In this document: positions 22,534 through 44,134 of the stretch, in pieces
Layout: the number at the start of each line of letters is the position of its first letter
Position numbering within the stretch: position 1 is the first letter of the stretch
Source: an uncultured Flavobacteriales bacterium
GTDB taxonomy: Bacteria; Bacteroidota; Bacteroidia; Flavobacteriales_D; Parvicellaceae
DNA: 64,000 nt
Reading direction: 5' to 3'
NCBI GenBank assembly: GCA_943787535.1
Contig: CALSMU010000004.1
Coordinates: 186,001 to 250,000 of the forward strand
Position numbers and translations under genes: made by a program
The notes under the pieces: model-generated
What the model saw: the letters and a program-made list of their open reading frames with translations, nothing else
What the model was told of the DNA's origin: nothing
The model's database searches: none

Positions 22534-22809
22534 TCACAAATAGAGCCAATAACATTCTTGCAGTTCATTATGGGGTGTAGACAATGTATAAATTGAATTA
22601 ATTTGATTACATTGATTTAAATTAAAACAAATAATTATGGAATTAGCTATAATATAGGCAGTCTCAATATCTTCTGGTGATAAATCTCCATTTGTTGTGT
22701 TTGAGAGGTATTCGGCCTCTTCTTGAGTTAGGGGTTTTACATCATTTTGAGATGATACACCAATTGATAATCCGATTAAAATTCCGAATATTAAAATTAA
22801 TTTTTTCAT
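22534..22809 (-). CDS. Small secreted protein, 91 aa
   Basis: The product begins with the signal peptide MKKLILIFGILIGLSIGVSS, nearly identical to that of the next gene upstream (22832-23401), and the surrounding DNA is duplicated as well. The mature part is about 70 residues with four cysteines (ICFNLNQC and a later Cys), possibly disulphide-bonded. No family is recognised. The gene pair looks like a duplication of the promoter and signal-peptide segment joined to unrelated mature parts. Confidence 0.5.
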   Translation of the reverse strand: MKKLILIFGILIGLSIGVSSQNDVKPLTQEEAEYLSNTTNGDLSPEDIETAYIIANSIIICFNLNQCNQINSIYTLSTPHNELQECYWLYL

Positions 22810-22827
22810 AGTCTTTTTGTTTTTATC
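22753..22827. repeat. Direct repeat copy 1: signal-peptide and leader segment
   Basis: About 73 bases covering the start codon, signal peptide and 5' leader of the 22534-22809 gene are nearly identical to 23345-23418; I see only a few mismatches. Confidence 0.8.
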
Positions 22828-22831
22828 TAGA

Positions 22832-23401
22832 TTACAACTTTGTCATATGAGTTATTTTTTCTCCCTCATAACCGTATTCACAACCATATATTTTATTTAA
22901 ATCACCCTCAACATATCTATACTTATGAAGATTATCATTGATCGTGATTCCCATCAGTTTCCCTTCATTGTTATAGTTAATGTCAATATTATCATATCTT
23001 TCTGAATTAGGGTATAGGATAGTTATTTTGTACATACCACCAGCTGGTGAATAATAATTGTCATAATATTCTTTGTCAATTCTAAGTATTGTTAAATCTT
23101 TAGATCGAACATCTAAATATTTCTGAATGAATTGTACGAAGTATTCTTTGTTTTGACTTGGATTATATACACCACCACTTAAACCAATGAAAGTTATATC
23201 TTCTTCTTGAACCAAATCTAATAAGGGTGTTACGTCCCCTGTTTCGATATATTTCACCAGTTCATTGGTCAAATTACGCTCATAAGTTTTTTTGGTTACC
23301 CTTTTATGGGTTTCACTTCTTGTTTTACCATCCATATATTGAGCTGATACACCAATTGATAATCCGATTAAAATTCCGAGTATTAAAATTAATTTTTTCA
23401 T
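22832..23401 (-). CDS. Secreted protein of unknown function, 189 aa
   Basis: After the signal peptide (MKKLILILGILIGLSIGVSA) the mature region is about 168 residues, with a nuclear transport factor 2 or lumazine-like feel (helix, then beta-rich stretches such as MYKITILYPNSERYDN), but no confident family assignment. The signal peptide and 5' leader are almost identical to those of the 91-aa gene 22 bases downstream, so the two probably respond to the same regulation or are in one operon. Confidence 0.55.
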   Translation of the reverse strand: MKKLILILGILIGLSIGVSAQYMDGKTRSETHKRVTKKTYERNLTNELVKYIETGDVTPLLDLVQEEDITFIGLSGGVYNPSQNKEYFVQFIQKYLDVRSKDLTILRIDKEYYDNYYSPAGGMYKITILYPNSERYDNIDINYNNEGKLMGITINDNLHKYRYVEGDLNKIYGCEYGYEGEKITHMTKL

Positions 23402-23418
23402 AGTTTTTTTGTTTTTAT
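23345..23418. repeat. Direct repeat copy 2: signal-peptide and leader segment
   Basis: This is the partner of the repeat at 22753-22827 and covers the same parts of the 22832-23401 gene. Confidence 0.8.
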
Positions 23419-23457
23419 TGATTTTGAGAGGGTTGATTTAACTCTTACATAGATGTT

Positions 23458-26447: not shown

Positions 26448-26462
26448 GAGGTCTCTGCCGGA
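26448..26462. repeat. att site, left end of element A (tRNA-Cys 3' tail copy)
   Basis: GAGGTCTCTGCCGGA is identical to the 3' part (acceptor and T-arm) of tRNA-Cys at 52443-52513 and is repeated at 43949 and 52441. It marks the host-element junction. Confidence 0.85.
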
Positions 26463-26574
26463 CTAGAAGTATTGTATTTGTATTGATTTCATTTTAATTT
26501 ACTAGCCCTTTTTGGCCCTAAAAATAGGTGTTTTTTTCTAATGTGGTAAAATAAGTAATAATTAATTAAAGATA

Positions 26575-26600
26575 ATGTTTGCACATATGTTTGCACTTTA
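26575..26600 (+). repeat. Arm-type repeats, left end of element A
   Basis: Two direct copies of ATGTTTGCAC occur side by side (26575-26598). A related pair lies at the right end of the element (43869-43892), as expected for integrase arm sites. Confidence 0.55.
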
Positions 26601-26624
26601 GTAGATTTGAGAAAAGAATGAAAG

Positions 26625-27929
26625 ATGTCAACATTTAATTATAAGCTCAGGTCTGATAAAGGTAACTCCCCTATAATTTATATCATATTTAGTTATGGGC
26701 GAAAGAAACTTTATAGGGTTTCTACCGGGTTCACGTTAAAGAGTGAGGATAATTGGAATCCGCAGAATCAAAAAATAAAGAAACGAAAAGAAGAGGTTCA
26801 TGGGAAGAGTTGGAATAAGACTTTATCAAGGCTTAAGATATATTTTGAGGATGAATATGACAGGCTATTAGATAAAGGTGGTCTGGTTAGTAATGACGAA
26901 TTAAGTATTATATTTAATAGTTTTGAAAACACAGCCGTAGCTACGTTACAAAAAAAACAATTTGATATCATATTATTGTTCGATGAATGGATATCATATT
27001 GCGAATTTGAAAAGAGAAATAAAGGAGATAAACTGTCCTTAGGTACTATTAAAACGTATAAAAACACCAAGGCTGTCTTTGAGGATTTTTTAAAGGTCAA
27101 TAGGTTGAGCTCAGAGGGAGAAGTAAATAGAGATCTCTATTATAGGTTGGTTACTTTTCTTGAGCAGAAGGATTATTCTTTAAATTATTCTGGGAAGGTT
27201 ATAAAGAATGTTAAGTCATTCTTGAAGTATCTAGTTTTTACGGGTAAATTGGAGTTGCCGTCATTTAGGTCTGAAGAATGGGAGGTAATGAAAGAGGATG
27301 TTGATGATGTGTATCTCTCGAATGAGGAGTTGGGTAAAATATATTTTTATGACTTGTCTAGTGTAGAAGAAAAGTATCGTATTGCAAGGGATTTATTTTT
27401 GATAAGTGCCTTTACTGGGTTGAGAATCTCAGATAACAAAAGGCTAAAGGATGAAAACATTGTAGAGGATAGTGGTAGTAGGTTCTTCAAAATTGAATCA
27501 AAAAAAACAAAGACGGAATTGATAATTCCTATCTCAAATATAGTGGAAGAGATTCTGTCTAGAAATAATGGGTTGCCCAAGTCAATGGCTGATCAAACGG
27601 TAAACATTCTAATAAAGGAAATAGGAGAGTGGGTAGGATTAGATCAAGTGGTTTACATCTCACGAACCAAAGGAGGAGAGAAGACTTCAGTAAAACATAT
27701 GAAGTACGAGCTAATTAAGACTCATACTGCAAGACGTTCGTTTTGTACGAATGCATACTTAGGAGGGATGGATACTTTATTAATAATGGCTGTTTCAGGT
27801 CACAAAACGGAACGAAATTTTTTAACTTATATAAAGGTAACAAAACAGGAGCAGGCATCTAGGATTGCAAATCATCCATATTTCTTGTCTCTTAGTGTTG
27901 ATAAGTTTGAGTCATTTAAAGCTAATTAG
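26625..27929 (+). CDS. Tyrosine recombinase (integrase) of element A
   Basis: The 434-residue protein has a SAM-like core-binding region (about 110-215) and a C-terminal catalytic domain. Catalytic residues are visible as Arg in TGLRISD, His-x-x-Arg in HTARRSFCTN, the late His in SGHKTERNF and the nucleophile Tyr in LTYIK. It belongs to the Bacteroidota integrase group often found in tRNA-targeting elements. Its position 163 bases inside the att repeat suits an enzyme acting on this tRNA-Cys. It is related to the integrase of element B but clearly distinct. It probably begins an operon with the gene 2 bases downstream. Confidence 0.93.
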   Translation: MSTFNYKLRSDKGNSPIIYIIFSYGRKKLYRVSTGFTLKSEDNWNPQNQKIKKRKEEVHGKSWNKTLSRLKIYFEDEYDRLLDKGGLVSNDELSIIFNSFENTAVATLQKKQFDIILLFDEWISYCEFEKRNKGDKLSLGTIKTYKNTKAVFEDFLKVNRLSSEGEVNRDLYYRLVTFLEQKDYSLNYSGKVIKNVKSFLKYLVFTGKLELPSFRSEEWEVMKEDVDDVYLSNEELGKIYFYDLSSVEEKYRIARDLFLISAFTGLRISDNKRLKDENIVEDSGSRFFKIESKKTKTELIIPISNIVEEILSRNNGLPKSMADQTVNILIKEIGEWVGLDQVVYISRTKGGEKTSVKHMKYELIKTHTARRSFCTNAYLGGMDTLLIMAVSGHKTERNFLTYIKVTKQEQASRIANHPYFLSLSVDKFESFKAN

Positions 27930-27931
27930 AT

Positions 27932-28423
27932 ATGATGGAAGTGAATGATGAAGGTACGGAAGAGTTTAATTCGATAGTACGATTTATAAGGTATTTACCA
28001 CTTGGGGAGGAAAGAAGATTAACGATTGAGGAATTGTTTTACGGTTACGTGAACATGGCAGAGGATGTTGTAGAGGTCGTTTTGCCAAAAATAATTTCTC
28101 ATGCTAAGCAGTTTGTGGAGGAGCATGTAGTGGACTATATAGTACCTAAGCTCAGTGCTAGTGGAAGGACAGCTCTTCAGGTGAGTTATCATGTGCAAAG
28201 TTATTACAATACACTTCCAGCGCTTATTAATGACAAAAATATTAGATGTGCTTCCTTGGATGTTGCTATGGAAAACTTATTCCTAAGTACACAAGATTTC
28301 CCAATGGAGAATCAGCGAGTTAGCGAAGTTAATATTAGGTTGGATTCAAGAGTGGGTAGTGTTTTTAAAAATAGCGCTTCAGAAGGTTTTTTTTTACTTT
28401 ATGAAGAGCAGGATGGAAGATGA
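27932..28423 (+). CDS. Uncharacterised element protein, 163 aa
   Basis: The gene starts 2 bases after the integrase stop, so it is likely cotranscribed. The product is acidic and mostly helical, with no signal peptide or known motif. The following ORF (28401-28646) overlaps its end in the +1 frame beside a run of nine T; the two may be one gene split by an indel, but each is plausible alone. Confidence 0.5.
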   Translation: MMEVNDEGTEEFNSIVRFIRYLPLGEERRLTIEELFYGYVNMAEDVVEVVLPKIISHAKQFVEEHVVDYIVPKLSASGRTALQVSYHVQSYYNTLPALINDKNIRCASLDVAMENLFLSTQDFPMENQRVSEVNIRLDSRVGSVFKNSASEGFFLLYEEQDGR

Positions 28424-28646
28424 AGAATTCACTTCCAATAAGTGGATTAGTTTTATGTTTAGGGAGATGGAGGTTCATGAAGGAACAGGAGAAATTGTTT
28501 GTATTCAGAAGGAGTATGTAGAGTTTTGTATGCGCCAATTAGGTGTCAAAAAACTGAAAATTAAGACAAAAGAGAGCATTGGTAATTATGTAATAAAGAA
28601 AAAGAGGTTAAAGACATTTAGAGAATTATATAAAGATAATAGTTAG
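28401..28646 (+). CDS. Uncharacterised small element protein, about 81 aa
   Basis: I use ATG 28401 (MKSRMEDEEF); ATG 28413 is the alternative. The product is basic in its C-terminal half (KKLKIKTKESIGNYVIKKKRLK), which may indicate nucleic-acid binding. It overlaps the preceding gene by 23 bases in the +1 frame, so it may be coupled to it or a continuation of it. Confidence 0.4.
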   Translation: MKSRMEDEEFTSNKWISFMFREMEVHEGTGEIVCIQKEYVEFCMRQLGVKKLKIKTKESIGNYVIKKKRLKTFRELYKDNS

Positions 28647-28716
28647 AACGATTGGGGAACGATTAGGGAACGAATCATGAATTTCATTTGTATTGAATTT
28701 ATAAAAACAATACAAA

Positions 28717-29004
28717 ATGACAGATCTAATACAATTAATTACAATTACTCCTAAGGAATTTCGAGACCTACTTTTAAAGGGTTTTATTCTAGAGTTAAAC
28801 AAGCTAGAGCTTAATCAAAATAAAGAGACTAAACTCTTAACAAGAAAAGAAACAGCAGATTTTTTTAAGGTCACTTCTCAAACCATTATTAATTGGGAGA
28901 GAGATGGAATAATTACCTCAGTCGATATTGGGGGTGTTATTCGATATAAAAGAGATGAGGTAGAAAACCTAGGGAATAATACTGAAGGGGGTCAAAATGA
29001 TTAA
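28717..29004 (+). CDS. Helix-turn-helix (excisionase/MerR-like) protein of element A
   Basis: The 95-residue protein has an N-terminal helix and a C-terminal winged helix-turn-helix of the excisionase type (LTRKETADFFKVTSQTIINW, then GGVIRYKRDEVE). Such proteins bend DNA in excision or regulate replication genes. It overlaps the following 63-aa gene by 8 bases and is separated from the replicase only by that gene. An equivalent gene (46316-46609) precedes the replicase in element B, so the pairing is conserved and points to a role in initiating or controlling replication as well as excision. Confidence 0.8.
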   Translation: MTDLIQLITITPKEFRDLLLKGFILELNKLELNQNKETKLLTRKETADFFKVTSQTIINWERDGIITSVDIGGVIRYKRDEVENLGNNTEGGQND

Positions 29005-29188
29005 TTCATTTAACAACTCCGAAGCTAAAAATCATCCCAAGGGGAATAGGTTAGAGGCGTTTTTAAGGGCTGTAACGGAGGTTTCTCATATTTCTGACCA
29101 TAACCTTCATATTGTAGCAAACCGCTTAAATATAGAAGCGGAAATTCTTGCAATAGAGATACTAGCAAAAGGAGGGAAGCTGCTATGA
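28997..29188 (+). CDS. Small protein of 63 aa between the HTH and replicase genes
   Basis: The start lies inside the HTH gene and the stop overlaps the replicase start in an ATGA arrangement, which strongly suggests a real coupled gene. The peptide is helical and charged, with no known family. Element B has no equivalent between its HTH and replicase genes. Confidence 0.5.
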   Translation: MINSFNNSEAKNHPKGNRLEAFLRAVTEVSHISDHNLHIVANRLNIEAEILAIEILAKGGKLL

Positions 29189-30498
29189 GAACAAGTAAGC
29201 CAATAATCCTATTCGTTCCGGATTCATTTATTACAGAGCTTGATGACTACCTACATGAGAATCCTCCGGGGTTCAGCTTTAATAGGGTGAACTTTTATTA
29301 TGTAGCCCATCACCTCATCAAGTTACAAATCCAATTTAAGAAAGAGGAATATCATTACTTGAATCTTGAGTGCCTTAAAAAAGTAACCTGCAGTAAAATT
29401 GGTAGATATATTAAACTGTTGCGTGATGGAAAATTTGTTCTAGGGAAAGAGTTCTATGTAAATGGATTCAAAGCATACAGATACAAGCTAAATGAGACAC
29501 ATATAGAGTGTGTTTCAAGAATTGAATTAACACGAAAGTCAAAATTAACAAAGAAAATTATGAAATTACAGAAAAATACAAAAGCCAACTATAATAGACA
29601 GGAACCGCATGTGAAGGTTCTAAGAGAAGAATTTATGAAAATGGAACTTGAGTATGATAGTGCTTATGAATGGGCTAACAAGAGTTCTGATCCTTTGAAA
29701 AAATTAAGCTACTTGACATCTCTTTACCATCTTGAGAACAAAAGCTTTCGATATTGTGGCAGAAATAAAACTAACTGTAGATTAGATACCAACTTAACTT
29801 GCTTGAAAAGTGATTTTCGAAAATTTATTAATGGGGACTATGTAAGCATTGATGTTAAAAATTCCCAACCGTTCCTGTTAAGTGTGCTAATAGATGCTAT
29901 TATTCACGACAGGGGTACCTTATGTGGTCACTTAGGTAAGGAGTATCTGGCTGGAACGTTTGGTGTAAAAGGGATTCAAAGATGTTCTTTCGTTCATCAA
30001 AATCAAGAAAAAGCGTTTTTGATGAACGTTAGAAACTATGCTGAAGCTGTAATCGAAGGGGTGCTTTATGATGATTTTGTTCGTTCATACCCAGGTGAGA
30101 TTAAAAGAGATAAAGCAAAGGATATAACATTTATGGTCCTCTTTTCTCAAAATGAATGTTACACTAGGTTGGGCAAAATGATCCCATATGAGGAAGAGAA
30201 AAAGGTATTTGCAACTGTCTATCCATTTATTTATAGAATCGTTAAAACACTGAAGTTAAAAGACTATAAAGCTCTTCCTATATACTTACAGAAACTTGAG
30301 AGCTACTTGTTTATAGATTGTATAGCAAAGAGGCTTATTGAAGCTGGTATTGTCCCACTGACTATTCATGATTCAGTTATTGTAAAGTCGGAAGATCAAG
30401 CTAAGACGCTAGCTATAATGAAAGAGGTGTTTATAGAGCAAATAGGAGTGACACCAAGCTTCAAAGTAGAGAGGCTAAAGGGTGATAGTGATGGCTAA
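29185..30498 (+). CDS. TV-Pol-like replicase of element A (superfamily-A polymerase motifs)
   Basis: The 437-residue protein has three motifs in the order of family-A polymerases. Motif A is YVSIDVKNSQPF with Asp223, preceded by a block RLDTNLTCLK and RKFI that parallels GRLSSNNPNLQ and RKAFI of the PolA encoded at 1278. Motif B has Arg308, Lys312, Phe316 and Phe320 at the exact 4-residue spacing of the O-helix (PolA R774/K778/F782/Y786). Motif C is LTIHDSVIVK with His395-Asp396. It lacks nuclease domains. The layout matches the TV-Pol family proposed for mobile elements and some viruses, predicted to have primase and polymerase roles. It is coupled to the small gene upstream. Activity is inferred. 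Confidence 0.75.
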   Translation: MRTSKPIILFVPDSFITELDDYLHENPPGFSFNRVNFYYVAHHLIKLQIQFKKEEYHYLNLECLKKVTCSKIGRYIKLLRDGKFVLGKEFYVNGFKAYRYKLNETHIECVSRIELTRKSKLTKKIMKLQKNTKANYNRQEPHVKVLREEFMKMELEYDSAYEWANKSSDPLKKLSYLTSLYHLENKSFRYCGRNKTNCRLDTNLTCLKSDFRKFINGDYVSIDVKNSQPFLLSVLIDAIIHDRGTLCGHLGKEYLAGTFGVKGIQRCSFVHQNQEKAFLMNVRNYAEAVIEGVLYDDFVRSYPGEIKRDKAKDITFMVLFSQNECYTRLGKMIPYEEEKKVFATVYPFIYRIVKTLKLKDYKALPIYLQKLESYLFIDCIAKRLIEAGIVPLTIHDSVIVKSEDQAKTLAIMKEVFIEQIGVTPSFKVERLKGDSDG

Positions 30499-30841
30499 CC
30501 TAAAGGGATCTAGGGTGAGTCAGTTGTTTAACAAAAAGAAACGATTCATACTAGGTCTCTGTCTCAAAGTGACTTTCTCTTTGCGTTGAGGGGGGGGTAT
30601 AGATTAATGTTACTATAGCCCACGTGTGAAAAAGGAGTAATGTTCATTTAGCGCACCTCATCGTGTTTTGCAGTTAATTACAGCGTAAATTACCTTAAGC
30701 ACAGTATTACTTGGGTGTATAAATAGTATTGTGAAAGTTTATACCAAAAAAAAGTACAAAAGAAGTTTGACTTAGTCTTATTGTTTATGGTAGGTTGGCT
30801 AATTGGTTCCTTAACTTGTAATTGACTGGGCTATTTCTTCT
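30499..30841. other. Intergenic stretch between replicase and remnant
   Basis: No ORF, RNA or clear hairpin is recognised. It contains an A/T-rich stretch and a run of eight G (30590-30597). It is probably a deletion scar or the region of element replication control; nothing decisive is visible. Confidence 0.3.
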
Positions 30842-31090
30842 GTGGAGTATTTGGTGTCCATTATAATCATACAAGAGAGAATGGAGAGTACAAGATTTTT
30901 CGATAAGGTGTCACAAGAGCTTGTAGATAATGGTATAGTGCCTTTTACGATACATGATTCAGTAATCGTCAAGAGAGAGTATGCTGAGAAGACTCTTGAG
31001 ATAATGAAGAGTAACTTCCTAAGGGAGTTTGGTGTGGATGCTTCGTTTCATGTTGACCCACTCAATCCAGGGTCTCCTAAAGTTGAATAA
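30842..31090 (+). pseudogene. C-terminal remnant of a second TV-Pol-like gene
   Basis: The frame has RMESTRFFDKVSQELVDNGI followed by VPFTIHDSVIVKRE, which aligns with residues about 370-402 of the intact replicase (LQKLESYLFIDCIAKRLI... LTIHDSVIVK). Motifs A and B are absent. Identity is moderate, so it derives from another lineage, not a recent copy of the neighbour. It shows that a further element once occupied or recombined with this locus. Confidence 0.7.
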
Positions 31091-31296
31091 AAGCTGATTG
31101 AACATGAGAATGCTGATGAGGTGCCAATAGGTCTGAATAGCGAGTCCGTAGGCTCGTTAGAGGGAGCCCATGCTGGCACTGCAGCTTCTTTTCTTTCAAA
31201 GAATGATTTCGCAACACTTACCTTATCATTCTTCCAATCAATTTTATTTTTCATTCTATCATATTTACGTATATTTACATACATAATTATGATAGA

Positions 31297-34200
31297 ATGA
31301 AAAAAATATTACTATCCATCACCCTTGTTCTTTCCTTTATGTCGATTAATGCTCAAAACTGGATACAGTTAGGGAATGGCATAGCACCCGAAGAGAGTGG
31401 TGACCGTTGGGGCCATTCTGCCACAACAAGTGCTGACGGTAACACTGTGGCTTGTTCAGCTCATTGGAATGGAGTTGGTGACGAAGGTCATGTTAGAGTA
31501 TTTGAATGGAATGGCTCGGCCTGGGTTCAAAAAGGTGGCGAAATTAATGGAGAAGGTGGTGGAGACAATAGTGGCCAGGGTCAGGGTGTTAGCTTAAGTG
31601 ATGATGGGAATGTAGTTGCAATTGGGTCTCGATGGAATGATAACTTTAATGGGAGTAACTCTGGCCATGTAAGAGTTTACGAATGGGATGGATTAGCTTG
31701 GGTTCAAAAGGGAGGTGATATAGACGGTGAAGATGCTAATAATTGGTCAGGCAGGTCAATCTCAATTAACTCCAATGGTAATGTTTTAGCCATAGGCGCC
31801 TCTGGAGGCAATGGGTCTACCGGACAAGTAAGAATTTATGAGTGGAATGGAATTGCTTGGGTTCAAAGAGGTGTTGATATTCACGGTTCAAATGTTAATG
31901 ATGGATTTGGGTATTCGGTTGGTATTGACTCTGCAGGCGTTTCATGTGTAATTGGAGCAAATTATAACCTTATGCAGTCTGGACAGGTAAGGGTTTATGA
32001 TTGGGATGGATTTACTTGGATTCAAAAGGGAGTTGATATCCAAGGTGAAAATGTTAATGATGAATCGGGACAAAGTGTATCTATAAATGCTACAGGTGAT
32101 GTTATTGCAGTTGGAGCTGCAAAAAACGATGGAAATGGAGCTGAAGCTGGTCAAGTAAGGGTTTTTGAGTGGGATGGATTAGCTTGGGTTCAAAGAGGTA
32201 TTGACATAGATGGTGTTACTGCCGGTGATTATTTTGGGTACTCTATAAGTTTAAGTTCAGACGGAAACAAATTAGCTGCTGGAACTTATAACCTTTCTAG
32301 TGGATATGTCCAAGTTTTTGATTGGAGTGGGACTGCTTGGATTCAATCGGGCATGAACCTCACTGGAGGGGGGGGCAACTATTTTGGATGGTCAGTTTCT
32401 TTAAATAGTTTAGGAACAAGATTAGCAGTGGGTTCTCCTGTAAATAATGGAGAATTGAAAATATTTTCAATTGGTTCTGCCTGTACTACGATTCAATCTA
32501 TAAATAACATTAATATTTGCAATGGTAATAGTTATTATGCGGAAGGAGCAAATCAAACAGTTTCGGGAATATATTATGACACTTTACCAGCAATAACTGG
32601 GTGTGATAGTGTAATTACTACAAATTTGGTTGTTTCTCCACAAATTATAATAACTCCATCGATTTCAAATGACAATGGTTCTGGTATTGGAATAATTGAT
32701 ATTTCAGTATCGGGAGGAAGCTCTCCGTACAGCTACTCTTGGTCAAATGGCAGTATAACGGAAGGCCTCATAAATTTAACTTCTGGTAGTTATTCGGTTG
32801 AAGTAACCGACTCTATTGGTTGCACAGCAAATGAAACGGTAAATATTATCAACTCGTGCAGTATGAATCTTACTATAAATTCTATAGGGACTTCTTGTGG
32901 ACAAAATGATGGTGCCACTTCTGTAAGTCTTACAGGAGGAACCCCTCCATATAATTACGAATGGTCAAATGGTGCAACCACCTCTTTGATAGCCACTTTA
33001 GATGCGGGTTTATATTATGTAACTGTTACTGATGATAACGGATGTATTGAATATGGTACAGCAACTGTTAACGATTCTCCTGGAGCAACAATATCAATTG
33101 CCACTACTCCAACTTCATGTTTTGGTGGAGCAGATGGAGCAATAGATGCTGCAATTAGTGGAGGAACTACACCATATACTTTTGCATGGTCTAACGGTGA
33201 AGCAACTGAAGATATTACTGGATTAGTTGCTGGACAATACCAACTGCAAGTAACGGATGCTGACGGATGTATTACTAATGATAACATTACTATTACAGCA
33301 GCAACAGCTCTTGAGATAACAACAACTGTAACCAACTCTTCTTGTGGTGGAAATACTGATGGAGCAATCACTTCAACAGTAACTGGTGGTACAGGTGCTT
33401 ATACTTACTTTTGGAGCACCACTGCAACAACTGCTGATATTAATGGATTGGTTGCTGGAGTTTATATGCTTACTGTAACAGATGCAAATGGATGTATGGA
33501 TTCTACTTCTGTTTCAGTTAATGAAGAAAATGGTCCTGTTGTGCATTTAGATTCTGTTGTATCTGCTTCTTGTGGTGGACTTGGTTCTGCTTATGTATCT
33601 GCATATGGTAACGCTCCATTTACTTATGCTTGGAGCAATAGCGAAGTAACACAAGACTTGATTGATGTAATACCAGGAACGTATCAATTAGAGGTAACTG
33701 CAGCTGGTGGTTGTGTTTCTAATCTGTCTGTTGTTATTGGTAATGATATGCCAGTTGTGCAAGACATTTGTATTGTAACAGTAGATAGTGCTACCAATAC
33801 GAATACAGTTGTTTGGGAGAAACCAATTACAACAGCTATTGAGTCTTTCAATGTTTACAAGGAGAGCACCGTTGCTAATCAATACTTCTTAGCTGGTAAT
33901 GTGCCTTACGATAGCCTTAGCCAATTTAATGACCCTAATTCAAATCCAAATCAAAGAGCTTGGAGATATAGATTAACAAGCGTTGATACCTGTAATGTTG
34001 AATCTGAAATGGGAACAATTCATAAAACGATTCACCTTACTGTTAGCTTAGGACAAGGAAACGACTACAATCTAGCATGGAATCATTATGAAGGGTTTAC
34101 ATACGGCAGCTACTATATTAGTAGGTGGAGTCCAAGCACTGGTTGGGTTAACATTGATACAATACCTTCAAACCTTAATACATACACAGACTTTAGTCAA

Positions 34201-35088
34201 CCACAGGGAAATGTGTTTTATTCTATTGAAGCTGAGCATCCGACTGGGTGTACATCAACAAAAGCACAAGACCATAATTCAACTAGGTCAAACAGACATA
34301 CTTCTATTGGAGGTGCTGCACCCTCATCAGATTTTAGTTCTTCTGGAACACAAATTGTTTCAGGTTCAAGTATTGACTTTTTCGATCAGTCTATAAATAA
34401 CCCAACAACTTGGAGTTGGAATTTGTATGGAGCCAATCCGTCTACTTCAACCGATCAAAACCCAACCAATATTACTTATGGCAGTACAGGGTTTTATGAT
34501 GTTAGGTTAATCGTAAGTAATGCTAATGGGATAGATACTTTGGTGAAAACAAATTACATAGAAGTAATCGCACCAGGAGGTGCTGCTCCAACATCAGATT
34601 TTATTGCGAGTACTACCCAAATTCAAGAAGGAAGTTCTGTTGATTTTTTAGATCAGAGCCAAAATAATCCTACTTCATGGACATGGGTATTTGATGGAGG
34701 AAACCCTGCTTTTTCCACCAATCAATCACCCACTGGAGTTTTATACAATGCAGCAGGTAGTTATGATGTAACACTTATAGCAAGTAATTCTTTTGGAGTA
34801 GATACTTTAGTTAAAACAACTTATATTAATGTAGCTACATCAAATTCAATAAATGAAAATGGATTAGGTAACTTAACAATTTTCCCTAACCCAACATCCG
34901 ACCAAATTACAATCGATATAAAGGGTTATAATGGAGTTGTTAATGTTGAGGTGTATGACTTACAAGGAAGGCTATTAGAAACCACCACAAACACCACTGT
35001 ATCTCTTAAAAAACACGCCAAAGGAATCTATGTTCTTAAGGTGAGTTATGGAGAGGTAACTGAAGAGTTTAGGGTAGTTAGGCATTAG
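31297..35088 (+). CDS. Large T9SS-secreted adhesin-like protein, 1263 aa
   Basis: A signal peptide (to about residue 19) leads into repeated beta units (about 25-390) of the type GQVRVYEWNGIAWVQRG, resembling FG-GAP-like propeller blades. These are followed by SprB-type repeats (about 440-830; GGTPPYNYEWSNG), two PKD-like domains (about 1010-1180; SSIDFFDQS...WSWN) and a T9SS type A sorting domain (NLTIFPNPTSDQ to the end). It should be exported through T9SS and attached to the surface, acting in adhesion or capture. It is cargo of element A and depends on the host's T9SS. No frameshift is seen. Confidence 0.88.
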   Translation: MKKILLSITLVLSFMSINAQNWIQLGNGIAPEESGDRWGHSATTSADGNTVACSAHWNGVGDEGHVRVFEWNGSAWVQKGGEINGEGGGDNSGQGQGVSLSDDGNVVAIGSRWNDNFNGSNSGHVRVYEWDGLAWVQKGGDIDGEDANNWSGRSISINSNGNVLAIGASGGNGSTGQVRIYEWNGIAWVQRGVDIHGSNVNDGFGYSVGIDSAGVSCVIGANYNLMQSGQVRVYDWDGFTWIQKGVDIQGENVNDESGQSVSINATGDVIAVGAAKNDGNGAEAGQVRVFEWDGLAWVQRGIDIDGVTAGDYFGYSISLSSDGNKLAAGTYNLSSGYVQVFDWSGTAWIQSGMNLTGGGGNYFGWSVSLNSLGTRLAVGSPVNNGELKIFSIGSACTTIQSINNINICNGNSYYAEGANQTVSGIYYDTLPAITGCDSVITTNLVVSPQIIITPSISNDNGSGIGIIDISVSGGSSPYSYSWSNGSITEGLINLTSGSYSVEVTDSIGCTANETVNIINSCSMNLTINSIGTSCGQNDGATSVSLTGGTPPYNYEWSNGATTSLIATLDAGLYYVTVTDDNGCIEYGTATVNDSPGATISIATTPTSCFGGADGAIDAAISGGTTPYTFAWSNGEATEDITGLVAGQYQLQVTDADGCITNDNITITAATALEITTTVTNSSCGGNTDGAITSTVTGGTGAYTYFWSTTATTADINGLVAGVYMLTVTDANGCMDSTSVSVNEENGPVVHLDSVVSASCGGLGSAYVSAYGNAPFTYAWSNSEVTQDLIDVIPGTYQLEVTAAGGCVSNLSVVIGNDMPVVQDICIVTVDSATNTNTVVWEKPITTAIESFNVYKESTVANQYFLAGNVPYDSLSQFNDPNSNPNQRAWRYRLTSVDTCNVESEMGTIHKTIHLTVSLGQGNDYNLAWNHYEGFTYGSYYISRWSPSTGWVNIDTIPSNLNTYTDFSQPQGNVFYSIEAEHPTGCTSTKAQDHNSTRSNRHTSIGGAAPSSDFSSSGTQIVSGSSIDFFDQSINNPTTWSWNLYGANPSTSTDQNPTNITYGSTGFYDVRLIVSNANGIDTLVKTNYIEVIAPGGAAPTSDFIASTTQIQEGSSVDFLDQSQNNPTSWTWVFDGGNPAFSTNQSPTGVLYNAAGSYDVTLIASNSFGVDTLVKTTYINVATSNSINENGLGNLTIFPNPTSDQITIDIKGYNGVVNVEVYDLQGRLLETTTNTTVSLKKHAKGIYVLKVSYGEVTEEFRVVRH

Positions 35089-35137
35089 GCCTTTTCAAAC
35101 TATTGTATAAAAGTTGGAAAGTTGTATATTTATCTAA

Positions 35138-36481
35138 GTGAGAAAAAAATATACCTACGATATAGTAAAAGCGGAAGCATTAAAATACACCACACGTTCT
35201 GAGTTTAGAAAAAAGAGTAGCGGACACTATGATGCGGCACTTCGACTAAAGATTGTTGATGAGATCTGTTCTCATATGGAGCGACTTAATAGAAAACCTT
35301 TTACTGCTGAAGAAATAAGATTAGAAGCCGCTAAGTTCCTAACTAGAGGTGAATTTGCCAAACAAAGTAATAGTGCATATGCCGCTGCATTAAGAAAAGG
35401 CATTTTAGATGAAGTCTGCTCGCATATGACTTTACTTCAACGCAAAAAATATACTCTTGAAGAATTAGAAAAAATAGCACTTGAATACAATACGCGAATT
35501 TCCTTTCGAAAATCTAATAATGGAGCTTACTCAGCAGCTTTAAGAAGGGGCATAATGGATGACATTTGTAAACACATGCACGCTGTTGGTAATCGAAAAA
35601 AAAGAGGTGTATATATTTTTGAATTTCCAGAAATAAAAACGGTTTATGTAGGTCTTTCTTACAATCTTGTGCATAGAAAGTCTACTCATTTACTTAATTC
35701 GCATAACAAAGGATTAAAGCAATTATTAGAAGAAAAAGCAACATATAACTATATAACTACTGGCAAGTATTATGATGCGGAGGTTGCTGCGCAAATTGAA
35801 ACAAACACAGTTTTAGACTATGAAAATAAAAACTGGACTATACTCAATATCTCAAAGACTGGAGGACTAGGAGGCGGAGAAGGAACATATACTAAGGAAG
35901 AATTAAAACAGGAAGCTAAATTGTATAAGAGTCGGTCGAAATTTAAAGAAGGTAGTCCGAATCATTACGCCGCTGCTCAAAGAAGAAGAATATTGACTTC
36001 AATATGCAAGCATATGGCAATTAAGAAAATTGAACCATACACTTTAGACTCTTTAATTGAATTATCTAAAAATTATTCATCTATTAGTGATTTAAGAAAA
36101 AACAAAAATGGAGCATATCAAGCTGCAATTCGACTTGAAATAATAGACCAATTAGGATTTAAAAGACAAACGAGAAAAAAAATTACTATTAAAGAGATAC
36201 AAGAGGAAGCTATGCTTTACAAAACAAGAAGCGAATTTGCCAAACAAAGTAATAGTGCTTATAATGCTGCTCAGCGTAAAGGCATTTTAGATGAAGTCTG
36301 CTCGCATATGACATTGGTCCAAAGAAAAAAATACTCCAACCAAGAGATAAAGGATATTGCATTGACATATGCTTCAAGAAATGAATTTAAAAACTCCTCA
36401 AGAGGGGCTTATGCTGCTGCAAGAGACAGAAACATCTTAGATGAAGTCTGCTCTCATATGCCGAAAAGAAAAAAGTCTTAG
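35138..36481 (+). CDS. GIY-YIG nuclease flanked by seven repeats, 447 aa
   Basis: Start is GTG 35138. Three repeats of about 48 residues (1-146) precede a GIY-YIG domain (about 157-245; GVYIFEF...VYVGLS, then HRKSTHL and an AQIETNTVLDYEN Glu), and four further repeats follow (about 251-447). The repeat consensus has EEA..Y.TR.EF.K...AY.AA.R..ILDEVCSHM. Repeats 2 and 6 are almost identical over 80 bases. The modules are likely DNA-binding units that place the nuclease. It might be a homing endonuclease or a defence nuclease. It is convergent with the nuclease/helicase pair. Confidence 0.75.
   Translation: MRKKYTYDIVKAEALKYTTRSEFRKKSSGHYDAALRLKIVDEICSHMERLNRKPFTAEEIRLEAAKFLTRGEFAKQSNSAYAAALRKGILDEVCSHMTLLQRKKYTLEELEKIALEYNTRISFRKSNNGAYSAALRRGIMDDICKHMHAVGNRKKRGVYIFEFPEIKTVYVGLSYNLVHRKSTHLLNSHNKGLKQLLEEKATYNYITTGKYYDAEVAAQIETNTVLDYENKNWTILNISKTGGLGGGEGTYTKEELKQEAKLYKSRSKFKEGSPNHYAAAQRRRILTSICKHMAIKKIEPYTLDSLIELSKNYSSISDLRKNKNGAYQAAIRLEIIDQLGFKRQTRKKITIKEIQEEAMLYKTRSEFAKQSNSAYNAAQRKGILDEVCSHMTLVQRKKYSNQEIKDIALTYASRNEFKNSSRGAYAAARDRNILDEVCSHMPKRKKS
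35351..35430 (+). repeat. Near-identical 80-bp repeat within the GIY-YIG gene, copy 1
   Basis: The segment encoding most of repeat 2 is almost identical at the DNA level to 36233-36312, with differences clustered in the middle. Confidence 0.85.
36233..36312 (+). repeat. Near-identical 80-bp repeat within the GIY-YIG gene, copy 2
   Basis: This is the partner of 35351-35430 and encodes repeat 6. Confidence 0.85.
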
Positions 36482-36538
36482 GAATTAACCCTATTCTCTG
36501 TTAGAAGATTTTTTTTAATAATTAATCTAACTAAGGTA

Positions 36539-37498
36539 TCAGGAAGTTAAATTTTGATACTTCTGTTTTAATAAAATCATCAAGTAATCCAAATCGATTT
36601 TCTTATCTAACTTCACTCTATATACACAGCCCTGTGTGCCATCTTTCCATGTCCATGAATATTCTTGAGTAATTTTTTTTGGGTCATCTAGGTCAAAGTA
36701 GTTTTTTGATTTTGTACCATCTGGTTTGATATTACCTCTTTGTATTTCAATGTTTATAAAAGCTTTCTTCCAACTAAAATATCCTAGCGTTTTATTTCCT
36801 ACCATCAAACTGATATAATTCTTTTTTGGTACAATATGCAAATCATCTAATACTTCAAGACGATCTTTTAATTCTTCCCATTTAGCTACTATGGCTTCAT
36901 CAGAATTAGCTGTATGATCTTCTTCACTAGATCTTTTTACTTCTCTACTAACAGATGCAATTACACTATTGCTTTTGGCACTTGATAATGATTCAATGCT
37001 TTCATTAGAAGTTGCTTGGTGTTTATTTAAGGCAATGGTTGAATTTGAAAACCTTTTTATTTCCCATAATTCAAAAGGAACATTCTTAAAATTAACACTG
37101 TCTTTTTGATAAGAGTTATAGGATGGTGAGACAAAAATTATTTTAGATTGACTCCAATCAATATCATCAGCACTTAAAACCTTATTCATGTGTTGAGAAA
37201 GTGTCAGAAGGAAATCTGATTTATTATTAAGCAGAAGTTGCAAATAAGTATAGCCTTGATCTATTACCGAATAACTTTTCCCCTTCTTATACTCGATAAT
37301 AACAAAAGATTTATTTTCCTTGTCATAACAAAGTGAATCAATTCGATACTTTCCAACTGTATATTCAGTTTTAATAAATTCCACATTGAAAAATGATTCG
37401 GTATTCTTTTCAACTAATTCTTGAATGTCTTTTTCTAACTTGAATGGGACTAGGTTCAATGACTTTGCTTGATTTTTTTTTAATTCATATACTTCCAT
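36539..37498 (-). CDS. PD-(D/E)xK nuclease-like protein with C-terminal DUF5655-type domain
   Basis: Residues about 45-75 have a restriction-nuclease core: a Tyr-Arg-Ile-Asp (KYRIDSLCYD) then IIEYKKG, giving the Asp and the Glu-x-Lys of the PD-(D/E)xK site. A Ser-rich linker (about 165-205) leads to a C-terminal domain of about 110 residues that resembles DUF5655 (KKNYISLMVGNKTLGYFSWKK). It starts 18 bases after the stop of the helicase gene, so the two form an operon. The pair looks like a DNA-degrading defence or restriction module; target and modification partner are unknown. Confidence 0.75.
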   Translation of the reverse strand: MEVYELKKNQAKSLNLVPFKLEKDIQELVEKNTESFFNVEFIKTEYTVGKYRIDSLCYDKENKSFVIIEYKKGKSYSVIDQGYTYLQLLLNNKSDFLLTLSQHMNKVLSADDIDWSQSKIIFVSPSYNSYQKDSVNFKNVPFELWEIKRFSNSTIALNKHQATSNESIESLSSAKSNSVIASVSREVKRSSEEDHTANSDEAIVAKWEELKDRLEVLDDLHIVPKKNYISLMVGNKTLGYFSWKKAFINIEIQRGNIKPDGTKSKNYFDLDDPKKITQEYSWTWKDGTQGCVYRVKLDKKIDLDYLMILLKQKYQNLTS

Positions 37499-37516
37499 AA
37501 ATTGTTTTTTCTGTTT

Positions 37517-40500
37517 TTACTCATTCCCAAAAAAGTCTTTCCATCCTTTCCATCCTTTGTCTTTGTATCTTCTCTGTGGGTTGGACGGTATATTAGAAGG
37601 TCTATTTCCATTCTTGCTCCATTCCTCCCAGTGTGTTTTTGATTTAATGTCTATTGATTTGATATATAATTTAGCTTGTTCAAATGTTTTAAACTCATTT
37701 TCTGGAAGCCCTAAGAAGTCTCTCCAACCTTTCCATCCTTGCTCTTTGTATTTTCTTTCTGGAAAGGAAGGTATATCGGATGGTTTATTTCCTGATTTGT
37801 TATACTCTCTCCATTCACTCGAGGATGAAAAGTTAAGGCTTCGAACAAATAATTTAGCTTGTTCAAATGTTTTAAACTCATTTTCTGGAAGCCCTAAGAA
37901 GTCTCTCCAACCTTTCCATCCTTTGTCTTTATAGAAAGTGTCGCATGTAGTTGGTATGTCGGATGGTTTATTTCCTGATTTTGAAAACTTCCTCCATTCA
38001 TTAGAAGATGAAAAGTTAAGGCTTTGAACAAATGATTTTGCTTGGTCGAATGTTTTAAACTCATTTTCTGGAAGTCCTAAGAAGTCTCTCCAACCTTTCC
38101 ATCCTTTGTCTTTATATGTTCTTTCAGGCGAGGCCGGTATGTCTTCTGGTTTTCCCCCTGATTTTAAATACTCTCTCCATTCTCTATTGCTTTTTAATTC
38201 TAGTTTAGATATATAGATTTTTGCATCACTAAAAGGTTTGAAATTTAACCTATTAGTGGCGACATTTCCAGAACCTAACCAATCACCCCAACTTTCCCAG
38301 CCCTCGTCTTTGTAAACTCGAGGGGCATTTGAAGGAATGTCGTTTGGTTTTTTACCTGAAGTGCAATAATTTCTCCATTCCTGTTCACCATTTAATTTAA
38401 GTTTTTGCACGATTTCTCTAGCAACTTTAAACTCCTTGTAAGTTTTTAGCCTGTTTGCTACGTTATTTGTACCTAGCCAATCACCCCAACTTTTCCATCC
38501 TTTATTTTTGTAAATTCTATCAGGAGCTGTAGGAATATCATTTGGTTTTTTACCTGATATGAAATACTCTCTCCATTCGTTCTCTCCTTTTAATTCAAGT
38601 TTTTGTACAAATTTTCGAGCATCAGAAAAACTCTTGAACTCCTTAAGTTGGTTCGCAACTGTATATGTCCCAATCCAATCACTATAGCCTTCCCAACCTT
38701 TTTCTGCATATATCAAATTAGGATTGCTAGGAATATCAGCTGGTTTTTTACCTGAAGTGCAATACTTGCCCCATTCGTTTTGATTGGATAGGTTCAAAGA
38801 GTGCACAAACTCCCTTGCCTCCTCAAACTCCATCCAATTAAACTTAGAAAGCTTCTCCCAAACCTTTATTTGCAGTTGTTTGGAGAGTTCCCCTTCGTCC
38901 ATGTATTCAGACAACACCTCAAAATTAAACTGCTCTTCAATCTCTTTTTGAGCTTTTGTGTTTATCTCTCCCTTATCTTTAAAATACTCTACAATTCTTT
39001 CGTCGTTGGCTGCCAAACCTCTAACAACATTTAGTATTTCATTAAAGTTATCGTTGTCTATTTCAGAAGTGGCATCATCGTAAATTACAGGCAGAATAAC
39101 ATAACCCCATTCTTTCCCTTTTTTTTTTCTCAACGCTCTACCAAGCGCTTGTACAATATCAACTCTACTTTTACGAGGGTCGGCAAATACAATGCAATCT
39201 ATGTTAGGAACATCAACACCTTCAGTTAAACAACGTGCATTGGTAATTAATGCTTTTTCTGAACGTGCAAACTCCTGAACTATGTCATTTCTTTTGGTAG
39301 TAGCATCTTTACCAGATACCGTATAAGTGTCTATTGGCTGATAATCATAAGTATCTGTTATGTGCTGCTGTAAGTCTTTGTTTCTTCTTGCTTTCTCAAT
39401 AGAAGAGTGGAAAGACACAGCATTTTTAATATTAAAACGCTTCATAGCCTTTCTAAGGGCTAACATAGAAGCCAAAGAACGAGCCTCAGTTTCTTTCTTC
39501 CACTTGTCGTTTAATTGTACTAGGTTATTGTCTTTTATAAAGTCGGCTATCTCCGATTTCTTTACATCAATGGTTATTACCTTATAGTCTGTAAGCAGTC
39601 CCAACTCAATGGCTTCTTTAAAGCTCATTAACGCAAACGTATCTCCATAGACATCTTCATCATCCATAGAGATAATATCATCCTTTGAACCTGCATAAAA
39701 CCTTTCGGTAGCAGTCATGAATATCCGCTTAGAAATAGCGATATTCTTCTCAAACAGTAAATGGCTGAAAAGCTTCTTGTCTGAACCCACTGTTTTGTGC
39801 GCTTCATCAAATATTCCTATATCAAATGTGAAGTTTAACCTTTTAGAAATCTCTGCTATAATTCGCCCACTTTGATAGGTTGTGAAGATGATTTTTTCCT
39901 CATTAATATTGTCTTTTAACCACTGCTCAATGTATTCAGGATCTGTTTGGCAAGGAACTCCTAAATTCTCTGTGTATATTACTACATCATCATTCTTTCC
40001 AATTCCTTCATCCGAGCATATACAGAGCCATTTAACCTCTTTGTTTGTAGCGACAATTTCTCGCAAGTAAACTTCTAAGGTTTGTTTTACAAGAGACAAA
40101 CTAGGAACAGCAATCAAAGTAGATTTTGATTTTAACTTTTGGGTCATCCAAAATCCAGTTAAACTTTTACCAGCTCCACAAGGAAAGATTAGCTTTCCTC
40201 TTGAATGGTTTTCTTTTCCAAAGTATTTAACGGCTTCTTTAAGCGCTTTGGTTTGATGTTTTCTAGGTTGAAAAGGTTTTAGTTTAATCTCTTTTCCTTT
40301 AAGTTGGGCATGGGCTTGTTTGAAAAAGTCTTCATCTAGTTTTTGCCAAACATCAGACATTAACGTGCTAATCTTATCCGTCTTTATCTTCTGAAAATTC
40401 TTAGATGTAACATCCGCACTTGAACAGATATACCCAAGCGTTAGTTTTTTGTTGCTTTCAAGCAATGAAAGAAATGTTGAAACTTCCTTAAAAGTTACTG

Positions 40501-40798
40501 ATGAGGTTTTATCACTATGGTATTTGCATTGTATTGCATGATACTCTTTCCCTGTCTTTGCAATTAAATCAATCCCTAAATCTTGAGCGGGTAGGTTTAG
40601 GTGCTCTAAAACTTTAGAAGGCACTTCTGATAGCATCCAAACTTCATCATATAAGCTTCTGTGTTCTGGGTTAATTTGAAAGTAAAGTTTTGTCAGTAAC
40701 TCAAACGCATCACCTTTTACCTTGTTATTTTCAAGGTCAATGGCTGACTTGAAGTCTAGCCAGTTTTTGGAGGATGATATGAGGGTTTTTGTGGTCAA
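37517..40798 (-). CDS. Mrr-like nuclease-SF2 helicase fusion with seven integrase-type repeats, 1093 aa
   Basis: The N-terminus (about 25-110) is an Mrr-like nuclease with Asp77 and Gln90-Cys-Lys92 (AIQCKYH). A superfamily 2 helicase follows, with Walker A Lys211 (CGAGKSL), DEAH 331-334, TAT motif III at 362-364 and motif VI QALGRALR at 550-557. From residue 656 to the end there are seven repeats of about 61 residues (for example EWREYNKSGNKPSDIPS... GWKGWRDFLG), the type known as phage-integrase repeat units. Three adjacent units are nearly identical in DNA at 183-bp spacing. It probably tracks along DNA and cuts it. No methyltransferase gene is near, so self/non-self discrimination is not explained. 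Confidence 0.85.
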   Translation of the reverse strand: MTTKTLISSSKNWLDFKSAIDLENNKVKGDAFELLTKLYFQINPEHRSLYDEVWMLSEVPSKVLEHLNLPAQDLGIDLIAKTGKEYHAIQCKYHSDKTSSVTFKEVSTFLSLLESNKKLTLGYICSSADVTSKNFQKIKTDKISTLMSDVWQKLDEDFFKQAHAQLKGKEIKLKPFQPRKHQTKALKEAVKYFGKENHSRGKLIFPCGAGKSLTGFWMTQKLKSKSTLIAVPSLSLVKQTLEVYLREIVATNKEVKWLCICSDEGIGKNDDVVIYTENLGVPCQTDPEYIEQWLKDNINEEKIIFTTYQSGRIIAEISKRLNFTFDIGIFDEAHKTVGSDKKLFSHLLFEKNIAISKRIFMTATERFYAGSKDDIISMDDEDVYGDTFALMSFKEAIELGLLTDYKVITIDVKKSEIADFIKDNNLVQLNDKWKKETEARSLASMLALRKAMKRFNIKNAVSFHSSIEKARRNKDLQQHITDTYDYQPIDTYTVSGKDATTKRNDIVQEFARSEKALITNARCLTEGVDVPNIDCIVFADPRKSRVDIVQALGRALRKKKGKEWGYVILPVIYDDATSEIDNDNFNEILNVVRGLAANDERIVEYFKDKGEINTKAQKEIEEQFNFEVLSEYMDEGELSKQLQIKVWEKLSKFNWMEFEEAREFVHSLNLSNQNEWGKYCTSGKKPADIPSNPNLIYAEKGWEGYSDWIGTYTVANQLKEFKSFSDARKFVQKLELKGENEWREYFISGKKPNDIPTAPDRIYKNKGWKSWGDWLGTNNVANRLKTYKEFKVAREIVQKLKLNGEQEWRNYCTSGKKPNDIPSNAPRVYKDEGWESWGDWLGSGNVATNRLNFKPFSDAKIYISKLELKSNREWREYLKSGGKPEDIPASPERTYKDKGWKGWRDFLGLPENEFKTFDQAKSFVQSLNFSSSNEWRKFSKSGNKPSDIPTTCDTFYKDKGWKGWRDFLGLPENEFKTFEQAKLFVRSLNFSSSSEWREYNKSGNKPSDIPSFPERKYKEQGWKGWRDFLGLPENEFKTFEQAKLYIKSIDIKSKTHWEEWSKNGNRPSNIPSNPQRRYKDKGWKGWKDFFGNE
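37681..38106 (-). repeat. Tandem 183-bp repeat, three near-identical cores
   Basis: Cores of about 60 bases at 37681, 37864 and 38047 are separated by exactly 183 bases (61 codons) and are nearly identical, encoding the end of one repeat and the start of the next in the helicase C-terminus. Confidence 0.85.
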
Positions 40799-40941
40799 TA
40801 TTCAATGAAATTACTAGTTAAAGTTAAAGCTTTGGGTCAGCTACTTGTTTACTAAAAACCCCACTAAAACTCATCTTCTCCGTTATTATGAAATATAATA
40901 ATTTTGTTGTTAATTTATTATTTAATGGCTATTGTTTTAGT

Positions 40942-41340
40942 TTAATTATAATTTACAATTTTTATTCTAGTAGCAATTGAGTATGACCCATCCATAGGGT
41001 AAATATAAACTACTTCTTCTTCTTCATAGTTAAATATAAATAAATACTTATTTCCTTGATCACTTATAGTATAATAAACATCTTGTTCTACTTCATTAAT
41101 AGTACTATCAATATAGTATGTTGATGTAAGATTATTATTATATGTTGAATGCTCAAATGATGTCTTTAAATCATTAAAAACAAATCCACTTATAAAGTTT
41201 GTATCATATCTACAATCTGAATATAATCTAGTTACATCATCACGAAAACATATTTCATATTCTGCGGTATATACTCTTAATTGTGCTACACCTACCATTC
41301 CTAAGAACAGCAGTGCAACAATGGTTAATATCTTTTTCAT
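40942..41340 (-). CDS. Small secreted protein of unknown function, 132 aa
   Basis: A signal peptide (to about residue 19, GVAQ) is followed by a roughly 110-residue beta-rich mature part with two cysteines. No family is recognised. It is probable element cargo and lies between the defence operon and the sigma factor, with about 140 bases of non-coding DNA on its 3' side. Confidence 0.55.
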   Translation of the reverse strand: MKKILTIVALLFLGMVGVAQLRVYTAEYEICFRDDVTRLYSDCRYDTNFISGFVFNDLKTSFEHSTYNNNLTSTYYIDSTINEVEQDVYYTISDQGNKYLFIFNYEEEEVVYIYPMDGSYSIATRIKIVNYN

Positions 41341-41461
41341 AGTTTTTGTTTTAAAAGGTGAATGTTTTTAATGTTAAAAGGGAACATTATTAATAGACGA
41401 TTTTTGTTTTGGATTTGTATATCTGTTGTTCTGTTTTATGCCCATCTGTTTGTGTTGGCTA

Positions 41462-41671
41462 TTAGTTTAACTTGTCAATACTTACTACAACCCTTACATC
41501 GCAAAATTCAGCAATCACAGCATGGTAAATCAAACCATGAAATAAGTAAAGTTCATTTTTGTTGGTGCCTTCCATTTCTCCTAAGAAGAAGGAATTATCT
41601 TTTATATAGAAATAGTGTATGCTTGGGGAATATTCCCCATCGTCAAAATCAATAAATACTGTGTTTCTCAT
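41462..41671 (-). CDS. Small hypothetical protein, 69 aa
   Basis: The peptide (MRNTVFIDFDDGEYSPS...) is acidic with no signal or known motif. It is preferred over the opposing frame because its composition is protein-like. Confidence is limited by length. Confidence 0.35.
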   Translation of the reverse strand: MRNTVFIDFDDGEYSPSIHYFYIKDNSFFLGEMEGTNKNELYLFHGLIYHAVIAEFCDVRVVVSIDKLN

Positions 41672-41742
41672 GTTTTCTTTTTTTAGTTACTTTTATAGTT
41701 AATTGATTGGGAAAATGAGATGTCACCTTTTTATTAAAAAAA

Positions 41743-43739: not shown

Positions 43740-43868
43740 TTCAAGAAATCAAATTAAGTTCCTTTTATTGAGTAAAACTATTCTACATTTTCTAGCTAGA
43801 CTGAAAGGGGGTATGAGAAATCTAAATGGAAAAGAAAGCGTGAGGCATAAATAGGTCCGAAATATTAT

Positions 43869-43894: not shown

Positions 43895-43903
43895 CCCACA
43901 TAA

Positions 43904-43945: not shown

Positions 43946-43948
43946 TTA

Positions 43949-44102: not shown

Positions 44103-44134
44103 TATTATATTTGAAATAATTAAATATTTCACAT

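Follow-up and report, generated by a model that had tools for sequence, protein, structure and literature searches.

The protein encoded at positions 29185–30498 (+ strand; 437 aa, ATG to stop) of the window, by which we mean the whole 64,000-nucleotide stretch of DNA analyzed, is almost certainly a member of the TV-Pol family, and its gene is carried intact by an integrative element (element A) downstream of a tRNA-Cys gene. The protein, designated P0001, is modeled as a family-A-like, predicted two-metal palm polymerase that has no exonuclease and is headed by an N-terminal winged-helix-like domain. Probably, P0001 is the replication polymerase of the integrative element, by which the excised element is primed and copied. 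A 2008 paper described the family and predicted its role (PMC2579912); the present analysis adds the division of P0001 into two domains, the ends of the element, its tandem arrangement with a second element (element B) at tRNA-Cys, a broken copy in element B together with a relic, and a recurrent gene order that lacks a helicase.

Catalytic motifs and family assignment

The initial annotation had placed motifs A (Asp223), B (R308/K312/F316/F320), and C (Asp396) in the 437-aa ORF, and all three are present at those residue numbers. R199 (codon 29779–29781) lies in RLDTNLT, R212 in RKFI, D223 (29851–29853) in IDVKNSQP, and D396 in TIHDSVIVK (H395–D396, 30367–30372); the fingers RxxxK (R308–K312) is encoded at 30106–30120, and an LQxxE signature (Q369–E372) common to the TV-Pol of phage Ma-LMM01 at 30289–30300, all on the + strand. 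In an alignment of 41 homologues sharing 18–55% identity with P0001, exactly five columns are invariant: R199 (the beta-hairpin, or template, arginine), D223, K312, E372, and D396. Near-invariant positions are Q228, P229, Y295 (40/41, with an acidic residue next), F342, P347, Q369 (38/41), and H395 (40/41). Column 308 holds Arg in 33 and Lys in five of the 41 homologues, Phe or Tyr occupies column 320 in 39, and column 316 is poorly kept (Phe in 21). Judged from the alignment, the invariance of five residues at this level of divergence exceeds chance, and the columns concerned are those that would be expected for the template arginine, motif A, the fingers lysine, and motif C, plus the LQxxE block.

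No Pfam family (at E up to 1) and no NCBIfam model matched P0001; the Pfam scan gave no nuclease domain, and DNA_pol_A (PF00476) matched neither P0001 nor the 25 homologues scanned. Searches of PDB sequences, both with the single sequence and with a profile, returned no match because P0001 is too distant. A viral sequence scan with P0001 alone found no relative, and one PHROG of unknown function weakly matches the motif-C end.

The parallels drawn in the initial annotation with the PolA encoded in the same window (1278–4124; D725, HD901–902) hold: motif B has the same spacing as R774/K778/F782/Y786, and the blocks before motif A pair R199/RLDTNLT with R687/RLSSNNPNLQN, and RKFI with RKAFI (709–713). 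In profile–profile comparison (hhalign), PolA scored 28.5 (shuffle maximum 23.7), and the alignment comprised motif C alone, with HD aligned; therefore, the homology of P0001 to PolA rests on structure.

The TV-Pol family was described by Iyer, Abhiman, and Aravind in 2008, includes proteins of Ma-LMM01 and Sputnik (V13), and is predicted to consist of primase-polymerases of mobile elements (PMC2579912). The Microcystis phage Ma-LMM01 is a named carrier (PMC2579912); we took MAP_030 as its TV-Pol from its motifs and its position beside transposases. In MAP_030, the hairpin arginine is present, together with NYDVVKCH (which resembles motif A), LLQRIE (with which Q369–E372 aligns), and QHDG. When the P0001 family was compared by hhalign with a set made up of the LMM01 protein, two IMG/VR copies, and relatives from Calothrix and Polaromonas plasmids, the probability was 85% (P = 6.1e-6; score 51.2). 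The alignment spans 179 columns and keeps R199, D223, LQxxE, HD, and the region around K312 in register. None of 100 column shuffles scored above 18.8, and the reversed control gave 14.7. Only profile–profile comparison was significant, as a plain HMMER profile search of the Ma-LMM01 ORFs was not. By profile score, P0001 thus stands closer to TV-Pol (51.2 against the LMM01 set) than it does to Pol I (28.5 against PolA, motif C alone). The earlier reading of these motifs as superfamily-A and of the protein as TV-Pol is thus sustained, and P0001 can be regarded as a TV-Pol of known kind because its family-A fold matches and its profile link to the Ma-LMM01 TV-Pol agree.

Predicted fold and domain organization

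The AlphaFold2 model of P0001, with the 41-homologue alignment as input, has a mean pLDDT of 90.7 and a pTM of 0.88. Past residue 190, the order of its modeled elements is the family-A order: a hairpin (191–193/200–202) bearing R199; a strand (219–224) bearing D223; a helical fingers insert with the RxxxK opening helix 308–320; a long helix (363–386) with Q369 and E372; a hairpin (392–394/397–401) with D396 in the turn; and then a helix (402–420) and a final strand (426–430). The two aspartates, proposed at the outset to meet in a palm fold, accordingly occupy the first palm strand (D223) and the turn of the motif-C hairpin (D396) of a palm with family-A order in the model. Helices 141–152, 157–165, and 170–184 stand in the place expected for the TV-Pol thumb, a pair of antiparallel helices, as far as position in the order goes.

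In Foldseek searches against the PDB, all 50 of the 50 matches listed were family-A DNA polymerases (KlenTaq, Bst, apicoplast, mycobacterial Pol I, and others), and no match to an unrelated family appeared among them. The best match had an E-value of 8.2e-6 at a Foldseek probability of 1.00; TM-scores were low (0.22–0.31), and therefore the overall arrangement of P0001 differs from that of the solved polymerases. Among viral models, the best match was a nameless 409-aa protein (E 2.9e-24, TM 0.71), followed by a "putative DNA polymerase I" from a marine phage and, lower down, by the DNA replication protein of the Zamilon virophage (V6BPG7; E 1.5e-4, probability 1.00).

The full 437 aa had been taken as a minimal polymerase. 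This needs correction: the polymerase part covers approximately residues 140–437, and residues 1–128 (29185–29568, +) form, according to the model, a separate winged-helix-like domain. Modeled alone (pLDDT 92.2), these residues give helices 34–50, 61–67, and 72–81, and then a two-stranded wing (85–92/95–102). Against the PDB nothing was significant (best E 0.043). The match list consists mostly of winged-helix DNA-binding proteins, the highest TM-scores (0.48–0.49) being those of 4pql ("N-terminal domain of DNA binding protein") and of 4pt7 ("structure of initiator"); the dominance of winged-helix proteins makes DNA binding by the modeled domain likely, and that it might bind an origin is a guess.

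Two elements in tandem at tRNA-Cys

The setting in a mobile element, as proposed initially, is evident from an integrase, att cores, and arm-type repeats at a tRNA-Cys (GCA) gene (52442–52513, - strand), the integration target. The att core GAGGTCTCTGCCGGAC occurs exactly at the distal end of element A (26448–26463, +; chance expectation 0.03 per window, 3 sites in the genome) and again at 43950, and with one mismatch at 52442, in the 3' end of the tRNA gene; the rest of the genome has no further copy. The att copies at 43950 and 52442 are preceded by nearly identical stretches of 62 bp that contain a terminator-like hairpin; terminator and att core occupy 43904–43965 (+; 62 bp) at the A/B junction with one mismatch vs. 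52397–52457. Just inside the att sites of element A lies an arm-type repeat, TTTGCACANATGTTTNCAC, at 26578 and 43872; the left copy, TTTGCACATATGTTTGCAC (26578–26596, +), pairs with the right copy (43872–43890, +), these being the only two in the window, where 0.03 are expected. Element B has a tandem arm-type repeat, AATTGTGGGGTAA, at 44077–44101 (left, +) and 52360–52384 (right, +), likewise just inside the att sites. On the basis of the att cores and matching arm-type repeats, element A extends over 26448–43965 (17.5 kb) and element B over 43950–52457, in tandem downstream of tRNA-Cys.

In a sister genome (G003), tRNA-Cys is intact and lies 6.7 kb from the same downstream gene, vs. ~34.6 kb here, with different content in between, which marks the tRNA-Cys site as a hotspot within the genus. 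In another sister genome (G002), the alignment to the left flank extends as far as 26316, and its context there is rearranged; no exact empty site was found. A tandemly repeated segment at 22734–23423 is present in several copies in G002.

Both elements open alike, with an integrase, variable ORF(s), an HTH_17 protein, and the polymerase. Element A encodes a tyrosine integrase (26625–27929, +; 434 aa; Phage_integrase E 7.6e-9); variable ORFs of 163 aa (27932–28423, +; no assigned function) and 95 aa (28359–28646, +; GTG start); an HTH_17/excisionase-like protein (28717–29004, +; Pfam HTH_17 E 2.2e-6, PHROG excisionase E 5e-9); and a 63-aa ORF (28997–29188, +) that overlaps the polymerase start. 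The tyrosine integrase of element B (44135–45424, +) is 37% identical to that of element A, and is followed by a 230-aa variable ORF (45555–46247, +), an HTH_17 protein (46316–46609, +; E 4.1e-11), and a TV-Pol gene (46606–47876, +). The place of the variable ORFs (27932–28646 in element A) is fixed and their sequences are unrelated: 163 + 95 aa here, 230 aa in element B, and 289–520 aa elsewhere, the place of the 163-aa ORF matching unrelated ORFs of 230–520 aa in relatives.

The cargo of element A (31297–43739) includes a T9SS/SprB protein, a GIY-YIG protein, a PDC-S18 candidate, a restriction enzyme-helicase, and a sigma-like protein. The GIY-YIG match is weak (35138–36481, 447 aa), and the protein also has a very strong match to PHROG 20046, a family with no assigned function (E 4.8e-86). 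PDC-S18 (E 4.9e-95) beside the restriction enzyme-helicase (36539–40798) constitutes a candidate defense pair, and at the right end (41743–43739) a sigma-70 region 2-like protein overlaps a family-less 408-aa protein.

Element A holds the only intact polymerase gene. The element B copy was noted earlier to keep all three motifs, which it does, although two frameshifts were missed that split the gene over three frames (46606–46836, 46820–47656, and 47553–47876) and make it a pseudogene; it was rejected as a second working copy on these grounds. Another TV-Pol has left a relic downstream of P0001, namely its C-terminal tail (30842–31090, +; the last 70 residues), which retains motif C, is 48% identical to residues 364–432 of P0001, and suggests module replacement inside element A. 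The broken copy and the relic would also suit a protein that keeps its motifs and is decaying or has a non-replicative function (e.g., a defense or regulatory polymerase), a reading that is highly improbable: the element A copy is open with every invariant residue kept, and none of the PADLOC defense models matches P0001.

Homologues were found in 23 of 396 whole genomes of the class and, by profile search, in 22 of 392 genomes of the phylum (about 6% in either case), as well as in phage contigs and plasmids. GTDB contigs contributed 16 homologue loci, including one in Aestuariivivens sediminicola (L035; 56% identity), and IMG/VR contributed 11. In five of the loci (L035, L036, L037, L038, and L043), the order is a tyrosine integrase (409–447 aa), an unrelated ORF of 289–520 aa, an HTH_17-like gene, usually a small ORF (69–110 aa in L035–L038, at the same place as the 63-aa ORF), the polymerase, and cargo. 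Type I methylases and a SIR2 protein are among the cargo at homologue loci. A recurrent Bacteroidota island type can be defined by integrase, HTH, TV-Pol, and defense cargo. A 686-aa homologue (L013:1468–3525) has a C-terminal GIY-YIG/NUMOD1 homing-endonuclease-like fusion and is an exception to the nuclease-free rule. Neither a replicative helicase in the loci scanned (a subset of neighbors), nor a D5/S3 helicase or SSB gene in element A or the relatives scanned, was recognized beside the polymerase.

The order of integrase, ORF, HTH, small ORF, and polymerase resembles that of Bacteroides NBU elements, in which int, orf2, orf2x, and orf3 precede a primase gene and then a mobilization gene. 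By this analogy, P0001 might be the primase of a mobilizable element, synthesizing the complementary strand once a single strand of the element has been transferred into a new cell, in which case copy number in the donor would not be raised. We regard this as unlikely, as Pfam scans matched no relaxase family among the element A genes scanned. Still less probable is a satellite of a phage, in which replication by the polymerase would be triggered only by a helper phage that packages the island. An integrase, a regulator-like HTH protein, and a replication gene at one end, together with defense cargo, resemble the general satellite layout, and phage contigs, some of which are huge, do carry homologues; nevertheless, the genes scanned included no recognizable capsid, terminase, or packaging gene, and we consider a satellite very improbable. 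The huge uncultured phage genomes LR756511, LR756501, LR745206, LR756502, and LR756504 (595–735 kb) hold homologues of 23–28% identity.

Iyer et al. proposed replicative transposons in which a TV-Pol is paired with the recombinase of the element (PMC2579912), and P0001 might correspondingly fill gaps or copy DNA during integration or repair, as in self-synthesizing transposons, rather than replicate a circle. Members of this polymerase family also neighbor serine recombinases: in two loci (L039 and L042), large enzymes of that class take the place of the tyrosine integrase near the polymerase. Tyrosine integrases at tRNA 3' ends carry out conservative recombination that leaves no gaps to fill, and with both points against it a role in gap filling appears improbable.

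Probable replication role and comparison with known systems

The reading that we prefer is replication of the element by P0001, and a replicative role as such is somewhat probable. The five invariant residues, the family-A fold, the Zamilon match, the Ma-LMM01 link, the recurrent gene order, the element ends, and the spread of homologues argue for it. Points against it are the lack of a neighboring D5/S3 helicase or SSB, which SCCmec and virophages have, and of an origin or iterons (no convincing iteron-like or origin repeats were seen near the polymerase gene), as well as the low TM-scores, the dependence of CCPol priming on MP (PMC7581432), and the replication initiators that Hymenobacter plasmids have of their own. 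Two such plasmids (L141:2824–4398 and L142:19368–20822) encode a TV-Pol despite their own initiator.

For P0001, we infer an activity, a mode of priming, origin binding, and a use of host factors along the following lines. The tyrosine integrase would move the element out of and into the 3' end of tRNA-Cys, with the HTH_17 protein probably acting as excisionase, and the winged helix would bring the polymerase to the DNA of the excised circle. There, the palm (D223 and D396), together with the fingers residues K312 and R308 and with R199 at the template, would start and extend a short DNA strand; the host helicase, SSB, and Pol III would complete the copying, after which the circle would reintegrate. 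A bolder version is a one-gene replicon, in which an origin-recognizing winged helix joined to TV-Pol would initiate, prime, and copy the integrative element with no helicase or SSB partner; this is doubtful, and if true such a replicon would differ from SCCmec and virophages, with their sets of polymerase, partner, and helicase.

In comparison with DNA polymerase I (PF00476), P0001 has motif A, RxxxK(xxxF), and motif C in the same order, but lacks the Pfam match and the exonuclease domains, and carries HDS where Pol I has HDE and LQxxE where Pol I has the QG.AAD block. With TV-Pols, which occur next to an integrase, resolvase, or transposase, it shares the invariant hairpin Arg, the Asp of motifs A and C in a modeled RRM-like palm, and RxxxK in fingers inserted into that palm, as well as the lack of an exonuclease, an extra N-terminal domain, and a location near a lambda-type integrase in a mobile element (PMC2579912); with the LMM01 TV-Pol it also shares the LQxxE block, and the published host list already includes Bacteroidetes (PMC2579912). 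A subset of TV-Pols has a fused or adjacent D5-like helicase, which is not required by definition; for P0001, no D5/S3 helicase was recognized among the element genes and neighbors scanned. The N-terminal domain of TV-Pols was predicted to be all-helical (PMC2579912), whereas that of P0001 is modeled as an alpha/beta winged helix. The fingers Asp reported as conserved in TV-Pols (PMC2579912) has no clear counterpart in the P0001 family: columns 286–312 of the 41-homologue alignment contain no conserved Asp, and show Tyr295 followed by an acidic residue instead. The polymerase part of the Zamilon/Sputnik-type replication protein matches P0001 structurally, but the virophage proteins are fused to a superfamily-3 helicase and P0001 is not; the Sputnik and OLV homologues of the Zamilon type combine TVpol with an S3 helicase (PMC3671162).

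The closest experimental parallel is CCPol-MP, the PolA-SSB primases of SCC elements (PMC7581432; PMC10061031). Detailed biochemistry of the family, of which the initial annotation knew none, is thus available (PMC7581432; PMC10061031): CCPol by itself extends primers but cannot prime, whereas in combination with MP it carries out de novo priming from dNTPs, which either D169A or D324A at the catalytic Asp residues abolishes (PMC7581432). CCPol is the sole biochemically tested family member and needs its partner protein MP to prime, which leaves the earlier description of P0001 as a self-contained replicase unproven. Like CCPol-MP, P0001 is a family-A palm polymerase of an integrating element with a catalytic Asp pair. 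The sequence of CCPol is close to that of DNA Pol I, and CCPol works with an OB-fold partner and a helicase encoded in one operon; P0001 has no such helicase (neither the ORF list nor the Pfam scan places a COG3378/DUF927 helicase adjacent to it), and directly upstream of it is only the 63-aa ORF, which we considered as an OB-fold partner and thought unlikely given its size. Element A offers a small (437 aa), well-modeled, and more divergent TV-Pol with defined element ends and a natural map of catalytic residues, and priming and copying by a TV-Pol that, unlike CCPol, has no partner therefore become directly testable.
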